A stretch of DNA of 22,621 nt from Patescibacteria group bacterium. GTDB taxonomy: Bacteria > Patescibacteriota > Microgenomatia > UBA1400 > MFAQ01. Location of the stretch: positions 1 to 22,621 of the forward strand of contig JAHITH010000045.1 of NCBI GenBank assembly GCA_018817845.1, given 5' to 3'. This document shows, in pieces, positions 7,223 through 11,386 of this stretch. Position 1 is the first letter of the stretch, and each line of letters starts with the position of its first letter. The translations under genes and the position numbers were made by a program. A model generated the notes under the pieces. The model had not been told where the DNA came from and searched no databases. It saw only the letters and a list, made by a program, of their open reading frames with translations.

Positions 7223-7233
7223 CACACTCACTG

Positions 7234-7307
7234 TAGCAGGGGGGAGACTTGAACTCCCGACTTCCGCCTTATGAAGACGGCGCTCTAACCAGCTGAGCTA
7301 CCCTGCC
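7234..7307 (-). tRNA. tRNA-Met (anticodon CAU, elongator type)
   Basis: A full cloverleaf of 74 nt can be drawn: acceptor GGCAGGG/CCCTGCT (G1-U72 wobble), D-arm with AGCTCAGCTGGTTAGAGC, anticodon stem CCGTC/GGCGG around TTCATAA, T-loop TTCAAGT and discriminator A. Anticodon CAU. The D-arm and the absence of three consecutive G-C pairs at the base of the anticodon stem point to elongator Met; a lysidine-modified tRNA-Ile cannot be fully excluded. CCA is not encoded (the next bases are CAG). Confidence 0.95.
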
Positions 7308-9283: not shown

Positions 9284-9312
9284 ATTTACCCATATATTAC
9301 CCGAATTGTCAA
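9284..9312 (-). promoter_or_regulatory. Putative promoter of the LAGLIDADG-like gene
   Basis: Minus-strand TTGACA (9307-9312), 17-base spacer, weak GTAAAT (9284-9289), then 6 bases to ATG 9277. The -35 is shared, base for base, with the divergent promoter at 9306. Confidence 0.45.
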
Positions 9313-9334
9313 GTCAGACTATTAATGGTAAAAT
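9306..9334 (+). promoter_or_regulatory. Promoter of the intron-containing tRNA-like gene
   Basis: TTGTCA (9306-9311), 17-base spacer, TAAAAT (9329-9334). Transcription would begin near 9341, about 8 bases before the mature 5' end of the tRNA-like RNA, typical for a tRNA gene. Confidence 0.75.
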
Positions 9335-9379
9335 ACACACCATTAACATGCGGGCGGGAGGTAAGTATCTCGTGAGGCT

Positions 9380-9561
9380 CAAAATGGGCCCCTATACAGG
9401 CAACTGTATCTGAAAATCTGGCTATATCGGTGAAACCCTGCATCACAGGGCAATGCCGAGGGAAGTTGTAATTAACCCCGTAGAGACTACACGCCGGACT
9501 CCTGAAATTATCAGGATGATGACATAGTCCGACACTCCAAGTAATTGGAGTCAACCAAAAG
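9380..9561 (+). ncRNA. Group I self-splicing intron (182 nt)
   Basis: All core helices are visible. P1: exon GGCU (9376-9379) with GGCC (9387-9390), giving a U-G pair at the 5' splice site. P2: ATACAG/CTGTAT with a GCAA loop (9394-9409). P3: TCTGGC (9417-9422)/GCCGGA (9493-9498). P4: TCGGT (9427-9431)/GCCGA (9455-9459). P5: CCCTG/CAGGG (9436-9450). P6: GGG/CCC (9460-9478). P7: GACTA (9485-9489)/TAGTC (9525-9529), in the standard contexts AGAGACTACACG and GACATAGTCC. P8: TCCTGA/TCAGGA (9500-9516). P9: ACTCCAA/TTGGAGT with a GTAA loop (9534-9551). P10: ATG (9384-9386) with exon CAT (9562-9564). The terminal G is 9561. No internal ORF. It resembles compact bacterial tRNA introns. Confidence 0.93.
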
Positions 9562-9576
9562 CATAATCTCACTTAA

Positions 9577-9595
9577 CCAAGGAGCGTAACCTTGG
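9577..9595 (+). repeat. REP-like hairpin forming the T-arm of the tRNA-like RNA
   Basis: CCAAGGAGCGTAACCTTGG: arms CCAAGG/CCTTGG and loop AGCGTAA. Its core AAGGAGCGTAACCTT differs from the RAYT palindrome core AAGGAACGCAACCTT by two transitions and has the same orientation. It occupies the place of the T-arm. Similarity is short and could be chance. Confidence 0.4.
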
Positions 9596-9608
9596 GCCCG
9601 CAACCAAA

Positions 9609-9968
9609 TCAGCGCCATAAATCAAGCCATTTCTCCCAATTCTCCTTCTTCTCCACGTCATCCCGGACTTGATCCGGGATCTTACTTAACTCACCATCTT
9701 GTAAAACAACCACCGTTTCCCCTTCTTTTTGCATATTTAGCTCATTTCTTATTATCCCTTCAATATATTCATCCTTCTGCACTTCCTCTAACTTTTCCTT
9801 TAATTCCTCATGTTTAGTCTCCTCAATCTCAAGCACCTCTTTAGCCTCATCAACTCGTTTATAAGCCCCCCTTAATTCAAAAAACCCTTTCATTAACGAC
9901 CACAACAACAACAAACCTACTAAAAACATCAATTTACCTAAAAAACCGCTTTTTTTCAACCTTGACAT
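9609..9968 (-). CDS. FtsB/DivIC-like septum formation protein
   Basis: 119-aa bitopic membrane protein: short basic N-terminus (MSRLKKSGFLGK), one TM segment at about 12-27 (LMFLVGLLLLWSLMKG), then a strongly charged coiled coil at about 35-66, then EYIEGIIRNELNMQKEGETVVVL, the usual FtsB/DivIC end in which a coiled coil is followed by an E-R-LG/M-x-K-x-GE box. Such proteins join FtsL and FtsQ in the divisome. The C-terminal tail contains LSKIPDQVRDD, encoded by a palindromic repeat (9657-9681), so the tail is longer than usual. Its stop lies 3 bases from the convergent intron-split tRNA. No clear SD. Confidence 0.78.
   Translation of the reverse strand: MSRLKKSGFLGKLMFLVGLLLLWSLMKGFFELRGAYKRVDEAKEVLEIEETKHEELKEKLEEVQKDEYIEGIIRNELNMQKEGETVVVLQDGELSKIPDQVRDDVEKKENWEKWLDLWR
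9657..9681. repeat. Palindromic repeat encoding IPDQVRDD inside the FtsB-like gene
   Basis: GTCATCCCGGACTTGATCCG continuing GGATC: arms ATCCCGGA and TCCGGGAT with loop CTTGA. This is the well-known scattered bacterial repeat whose translation is (K/R)IPDQVRDD. In-frame here near the C-terminus. Confidence 0.75.
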
Positions 9969-11309: not shown

Positions 11310-11386
11310 TGGTGGGCCGGGCTGGACTCGAACCAGCGACCACCAAGGTATAAGCTTGGCGCTCTGACCAACTGAGCTACCGGCCC
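11310..11386 (-). tRNA. tRNA-Ile (anticodon UAU)
   Basis: Full 77-nt cloverleaf with encoded CCA: acceptor GGGCCGG/CCGGCCC, D-arm AGCTCAGTTGGTCAGAGC, anticodon stem CCAAG/CTTGG around CTTATAC, T-arm GCTGG-TTCGAGT-CCAGC. Anticodon TAT reads AUA directly. Most bacteria instead use a CAU tRNA modified to lysidine by TilS. Confidence 0.95.

Follow-up and report, generated by a model that had tools for sequence, protein, structure and literature searches.

Results

An interrupted tRNA gene in the window

The window, by which we mean the whole stretch of 22,621 nucleotides that was analysed, carries a tRNA-like gene whose anticodon loop is split by a group I intron. The features in and around this gene are the following:

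7233..7307, - strand: canonical elongator tRNA-Met(CAU), reported by the Rfam tRNA model and by ARAGORN, about 2 kb from the initiator gene
9306..9334, + strand: promoter-like TTGTCA-17-TAAAAT a short way before the gene, matching the consensus at 10 of 12 bases
9349..9379, + strand: 5' exon of an initiator-like tRNA (half-match of model R1 at 9349-9415, 24.8 bits)
9380..9561, + strand: group I intron of 182 nt, between U33 and C34 (RF00028, 72 bits; same-site introns in relatives)
9562..9606, + strand: 3' exon of the same tRNA (R1 half-match at 9536-9603, 18.4 bits)
9609..9968, - strand: DivIC/FtsB-like septum formation gene, adjoining the tRNA (Pfam PF04977, E 1.6e-9)

The promoter-like match is weak, as two such sites occur in the region against a shuffle mean of 1.2. 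The initial annotation had placed a complete group I intron here, inside a CAU tRNA-like gene spanning 9349-9606, and these coordinates proved exact. Rfam model RF00028 (Intron_gpI) matches positions 9370-9551 of the + strand over its full length (model positions 1-253), and this covariance model match exceeds the curated score, reaching 72 bits where the gathering score is 50 (E 9.3e-17). Removal of the 182 nt joins GGCT, ending at 9379, to CATAA, starting at 9562, and restores the CTCATAA loop and the 7-bp acceptor just as had been predicted. The U-G pair at the 5' splice site (P1) and the terminal G are readable in the intron, and so is a P10 of 3 bp in which the AUG before the guide GGCC pairs with the CAU anticodon; these elements, also drawn in the initial annotation, recur in the introns of relatives.

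The 5' exon supplies the 5' strand of the acceptor, G8 G9, the D-arm GAGGUAAGUAUCUC, the 5' strand of the anticodon stem and C32 U33, and the 3' exon supplies the CAU anticodon, the variable loop, a 6-bp T-stem with loop AGCGUAA, the 3' strand of the acceptor, A73 and an encoded CCA. When joined, they make 76 nt that fold into a cloverleaf (-32.0 kcal/mol), with acceptor TGCGGGC/GCCCGCA and anticodon stem (G)TGAGG/TCTCA(C) around the restored loop. The D-loop, UAAGUA, lacks G18G19 and the T-loop lacks TTCRA, and it is because these signatures are absent that tRNA finders miss the gene: neither the Rfam tRNA model nor ARAGORN reported the exons on the window, and ARAGORN did not report a tRNA on the spliced 76-nt sequence either.

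The cloverleaf was evaluated on an alignment of 19 distinct homologues, 18 cellular and one viral. Pairing was seen in 99.3% of 455 cells, and 12 of the 24 pairs were doubly changed, spread across all four helices. Sliding the partner strand lowered pairing to at most 55.2%, and none of 500 shuffles reached the observed pairing, two-sided-change and covariation measures, while the count of further pair types was reached by 55 of 500.

The initiator gene among relatives

We searched a close set of 54 genomes, the window's own and 53 relatives. BLAST with the E. coli fMet gene was discarded as a detector: it matched 18 of the 54 genomes, never beyond about 50 of 77 bases, and most of its matches, read by eye, were elongator-Met or other tRNAs. 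Since it was too weak, two models were built, R1 for the window's initiator form (here called type A) and R2 for a compact type found in other families of the same order, which measures 69-70 nt and mostly has the D-loop ACGGU(N), the T-loop TTCRACT and C1xA72. An initiator gene was found in 45 of the 54 genomes. Type A is uninterrupted in 17 of them and interrupted in seven (one, G001, seen only at its 5' side), the compact type is uninterrupted in 12 and interrupted in seven, a third form, Ch65, occurs interrupted in one genome (G017), and one initiator (G029) is truncated where its contig stops. The searches brought up none in the remaining nine (G011, G016, G028, G038, G040, G043, G045, G047 and G053).

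R1 gave strong matches (at least 89 bits) in 17 genomes, once in each, and R2 (at least 91 bits) in 12 genomes, none of which carries type A; no genome of this set combined type A with a strong compact-type match, and the other R2 matches, below 54 bits, were a mixture of other tRNAs and type A genes. Ch65 is intermediate, having the window's body, its 6-bp T-stem and the same-site intron, yet UCGGUA and UUCAACU as its loops. A pattern for the 5' exon matched 19 of the 54 genomes with one match each, of which 18 are genuine (that in G001 is cut by a contig end) and one, L072 in G029, was rejected as chance. In a wider scan of contigs the pattern hit at least 117 stretches, mostly by chance, and 14 of those listed show the full gene or its start. 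At the scale of the class, R1 matched 148 of 373 genomes at E 1e-6 and R2 matched 206 of 373 at E 1e-12; two initiator copies were seen in two genomes, G057 and G396, the latter with one copy of each 18/55 state.

The same gene is present in records named Collierbacteria, Beckwithbacteria, Woesebacteria or Patescibacteria, which agrees with the earlier claim that a group I intron follows U33 in a CAU tRNA-like gene and that the organism is a CPR bacterium. That description of the host gene was right as far as it went; it missed the initiator type, the remodelled elbow and the fact that most relatives carrying the gene have it uninterrupted. The 3' ends vary as well, and some initiator genes encode CCA while others have C and another base after A73, a difference seen even within a genus (G024, G035).

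Type A tRNA also occurs in viruses. Among 16 IMG/VR stretches that match the pattern, two (L218 and L221, on contigs of 76.7 and 44.7 kb) carry it with T-loop UGCGAUU, beside tRNA-Glu within a tRNA array, and in both arrays it sits between the Glu and Gln genes. ARAGORN reported 20 other tRNAs on a 3.8-kb stretch of one array and seven on a 1.1-kb stretch of the other, none with a CAU anticodon. Both copies score 75.7 bits with R1, a score that is not independent since a viral sequence was among those from which R1 was built. The host of these viruses would be a CPR bacterium of this kind.

Introns at a single site

The same-point intron, GGCT|...G|CATAA, interrupts the initiator in 15 of the 45 genomes. 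An alignment of 14 introns of 175-263 nt, drawn from both initiator types and the Ch65 form, showed that all begin after GGCT/GGCU, end in G before CATAA/CAUAA and contain the guide GGGCC or GGGUC. Read by eye, a 3-bp P10 between the three bases before GGCC/GGUC and the CAU anticodon is possible in 13 of the 14, in one case with a G-U pair. A consensus of 32 pairs was 97.2% standard, with 18 pairs doubly changed, in a structure predicted from the same 14 sequences on which pairing was scored. All of them, the window's included, are too short to hold an endonuclease gene. On the strength of this conservation, the window intron is likely a functional ribozyme, and the presence of same-site introns across families suggests that one site in the initiator tRNA is held or re-invaded by introns.

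Other group I introns were noticed during these searches. In the window's own genome (G000) a second match, L014:1-180, at the start of contig G000:C19, scores 34.5 bits, below the gathering score, and apparently splits the 16S rRNA gene close to the 3' end of that gene. Seven loci of relatives (L028, L029, L030, L032, L040, L042 and L056) hold further group I introns, apparently in elongator tRNA genes near the anticodon, judging from flanks such as TAGCTCAG upstream or GGTTC downstream.

Probable initiator identity

Bacterial initiator tRNAs are recognised by a CAU anticodon with U33 and A37, C1xA72, three consecutive G-C pairs in the anticodon stem and A11-U24. The window tRNA has the CAU anticodon with U33 and A37 on its stem, and it has A11-U24 (D-stem GAG/CTC). 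At positions 1/72 it has U1-A72 in place of C1xA72, and in place of the three G-C pairs it has A29-U41, G30-C40 and G31-U39. Positions 1/72 vary across the 169 initiators that our parser could read (C/A in 67, U/A in 87, A/U in eight, other in seven), and the window's anticodon stem also occurs in neighbouring families whose elbow is canonical.

The window's own assembly holds one canonical CAU tRNA, along with tRNA-Ile(GAU) and tRNA-Ile(UAU), and the split gene is the only CAU tRNA found there apart from the elongator Met; this assembly is 88% complete, so that a missing second initiator there is weak evidence by itself. An elongator tRNA-Met gene near the initiator is seen in many relatives as well: the sequence taken around the locus contains one at 12 of 15 type A loci, as it does at several of the other types. 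An Ile2-CAU identity, which was also considered, is disfavoured: the window carries a tRNA-Ile(UAU) at 11310-11386, which makes an Ile-CAU unlikely, and the exon resembles initiators.

An Fmt-like match was found in 43 of the 54 genomes, the window's own among them, and the curated cut-off was passed by two of the 54; the own frame (G000:C34:2602-3342) scores 169.5 bits, below the cut-off of 201.5. The Fmt matches in the four f6 genomes are without the first 71-98 model positions and there is none in the three f7 genomes (G021, G032, G040), so that families carrying the altered initiator may differ in formylation. ARAGORN, run on stretches around the 30 Rfam tRNA matches of the window's genome, returned no Ser, Asn, Asp or His tRNA, an absence that could reflect missing contigs or further interrupted genes.

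A coupled change at positions 18 and 55

The parser was given 173 genes, a subset of the matches made up of the best-scoring loci of the class and close set, 80 picked for family spread, five pattern or viral matches and 11 with the intron removed, and it read 169 of them (141 distinct), with family placement for 162 genomes. Its rule, chosen by us, accepts T-stems of 6 bp and holds the acceptor in a fixed register, and the type A rows depend on it. Positions 18/55 were G/U in 86 genes, G/C in nine and A/G in 74, and the combinations A/U, A/C and G/G did not occur among the 169. Positions 19/56 were G/C in every one of them. The window tRNA accordingly has A18/G55 where the canonical elbow has G18-Psi55, and keeps G19/C56. 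Three apparent exceptions to the coupling in an earlier parse turned out to be artefacts of loop numbering, and the four genes left unread by the parser (L389, L402, L404 and L406) are G18/U55 by eye. A search across the phylum gave 18 loci for examination, of which 16 show an initiator, 12 of these outside the class; read by eye, 12 of the 16 are G/U and four A/G, with no uncoupled case. Collapsing at 90% identity left 50 representatives, 23 with A/G, 21 with G/U and six with G/C. The models had been trained on one or the other state, but the R1 class search took in matches scoring as low as about 39 bits, and a wholesale loss of mixed states is therefore not expected.

Other tertiary positions differ as well. 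Positions 8/14 were U/A in 132 parsed genes and G/U in 37, never mixed in this set, and in the G/U forms read U14 is able to pair with A21; three loci of the phylum-wide search (L431, L435 and L438) have A8/A14 with the canonical G18/U55 elbow, and the 8/14 rule is therefore not general. All 95 parsed genes with G18 have U/A at 54/58, and the 74 with A18 have U-A in 26, C-A in 20, G-G in 14, A-U in 11, C-C in two and G-U in one. A T-stem of 6 bp, which makes a 13-bp acceptor-T stack against the usual 12, was seen in 28 of the 169 (type A genes and G017). Given the changes at 8, 14, 54 and 58 and the longer T-stem, the new elbow of type A may not be a one-for-one replacement. The 29 tRNAs that ARAGORN found on stretches around Rfam matches in the window's own genome keep their GG and TTC loops, as read by eye.

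Both 18/55 states occur inside single families, namely f30 (three G18, seven A18), f31 (13 and two), f43 (one and six) and f90 (three and one), and the switch has therefore probably happened more than once in the initiators of the phylum. The A18 cases of f31 may stem from transfer or from mis-binned contigs, as G396 holds both forms.

Loss of TruB, the Psi55 synthase, was considered as the sole cause of G55 and is not supported. TruB (TIGR00431) matches were found in 30 of the 54 genomes, and they include the window's own and seven others among the eight type A genomes with the enzyme, so that its loss alone does not explain G55. Of the 16 genomes in the window's family f1, 14 gave no TruB match, nearly complete ones included, but the enzyme was present in both genomes of the window's genus; U55 is kept in the other tRNAs of the window's genome.

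Discussion

Our results indicate that the spliced gene very probably provides a Collierbacteria-like CPR bacterium with its initiator tRNA, standing in place of the compact G18/U55 initiator of neighbouring families. The best explanation of the locus, in which we have considerable confidence, is that it represents the only initiator tRNA gene of this bacterium, split after U33 by a small group I ribozyme. The intron itself is of an ordinary kind, and its host is a new initiator tRNA variant with a rewired 18-55 elbow contact.

The spliced RNA could instead be a conserved tRNA-like molecule that acts in regulation or arises as a by-product of processing, with the true initiator having been missed. 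Two canonical elbow signatures are indeed missing, ARAGORN overlooks type A in 15 of 15 loci and the Rfam tRNA model overlooks it in three of three, even at E up to 10. However, the sequences form a continuum to recognisable initiators: the f43, f26 and f11 forms are called tRNA-Met by ARAGORN, with Ch65 as a direct intermediate, and the calls for f43 and f26 mean that A18/G55 alone does not blind the program. Type A genomes, several of them 96-100% complete, show no second initiator by E. coli fMet BLAST or R2, and the type A tRNA stands among canonical tRNAs in two viral arrays, which leaves another function improbable. Far less credible is that the tRNA gene in the window is decaying and persists solely as an intron harbour, as its loss of G18G19 and TTCRA and its escape from gene finders might suggest, since 17 of the 54 genomes have an exon of this kind without interruption and its helices covary; the uninterrupted copies and the covariation led us to reject a reading of the exons as debris.

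A separate matter is whether the correlation between 18 and 55 reflects ancestry, with two old sequence types inherited in blocks, and not compensation. Most families are uniform at 18/55, and shared descent inflates any two-column statistic, for which reason the Fisher value for 18/55 is not a probability of independence. Yet both states occur inside f30, f31, f43 and f90 on different D-loop backgrounds, with no uncoupled combination, and we consider the explanation by ancestry unlikely. We lean instead, with moderate confidence, towards a repeated exchange, in which Patescibacteria swapped the near-universal G18-Psi55 for A18-G55 in the initiator and not in the elongators (as read in one genome), a natural compensatory switch of a tertiary pair, which the direct entry of the initiator into the P site would make tolerable. 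The window's clade would have gone further, with changes at 8-14 and 54-58 and an acceptor-T stack of 13 bp, to the point where gene finders no longer see the gene.

The steps from gene to initiation can be proposed from the sequence. A precursor would be transcribed from the + strand, and the intron would fold and use guanosine, with its guide GGCC paired to GGCU of the exon (P1) and its AUG paired to the anticodon CAU (P10). The intron would then excise itself and leave the loop CUCAUAA, after which the spliced tRNA would be trimmed, charged with methionine, presumably formylated by the Fmt-like enzyme that the genome encodes, and put to use in the P site of the ribosome. The elbow would be held by the unchanged G19-C56 and by an A18-G55 contact replacing G18-Psi55, with 8-14 and 54-58 changed too. 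We infer self-splicing, processing, charging, formylation and use in initiation alike.

If the initiator of the phylum exchanges its 18-55 contact, with both states in single families, the role of this contact in initiation and first translocation becomes testable with natural variants. The altered elbow would also explain why programs such as ARAGORN can leave genomes of the clade seemingly without an initiator tRNA, a gene that our models recover. No earlier description of an altered A18-G55 initiator elbow in CPR bacteria was found in the literature searched, most subscription papers lying outside it. Work with randomised D- and T-loops in suppressor tRNAs reportedly exists, and its active clones may include A18-G55.

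Compared with the canonical tRNA-fMet of E. coli, the window tRNA shares CAU in CUCAUAA, the preceding GGCU, A11-U24 and the A72 A73 CCA end; unlike it, the window tRNA is without G18G19, TTCRA and the run of three G-C pairs, and has U1-A72, G8/U14 and a 6-bp T-stem. Small group I introns are described, in the available parts of the sources, in cyanobacterial tRNA-fMet and tRNA-Leu and in proteobacterial tRNA-Ile2 (PMC4033280, PMC8450103), and the accessible portions of two papers on CPR bacteria speak of rRNA introns only (PMC10714607, PMC7143001). The window's intron resembles the tRNA introns of those accounts in being small and self-splicing by prediction, in lying in the anticodon loop of an initiator tRNA and in that tRNA finders lose the split gene (PMC4033280, PMC8450103). 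It differs from what is described there in its occurrence in CPR bacteria and in the non-canonical elbow of its host tRNA, and its position between U33 and C34 may also set it apart from the cyanobacterial fMet introns.

Natural tRNAs without G18G19 and T-Psi-C are also known among tRNA-Pyl and metazoan mitochondrial tRNAs, as far as the available text of PMC7609411 goes, and the D. hafniense tRNA-Pyl treated there shares G8 with the window tRNA. In the same portion tRNA-Pyl is described as lacking G19 and C56 too, whereas the window initiator keeps G19-C56 and exchanges 18-55, and type II mitochondrial tRNAs are described as without D-T loop contact, unlike the window initiator (PMC7609411). 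The eukaryotic initiator tRNA with A54 offers the likeness of a T-loop change specific to the initiator; in the accessible part of that account the change lies at 54 and gives an A54-A58 pair (PMC7912444), whereas here 55 and 18 change together and, in type A, 54 and 58 as well.
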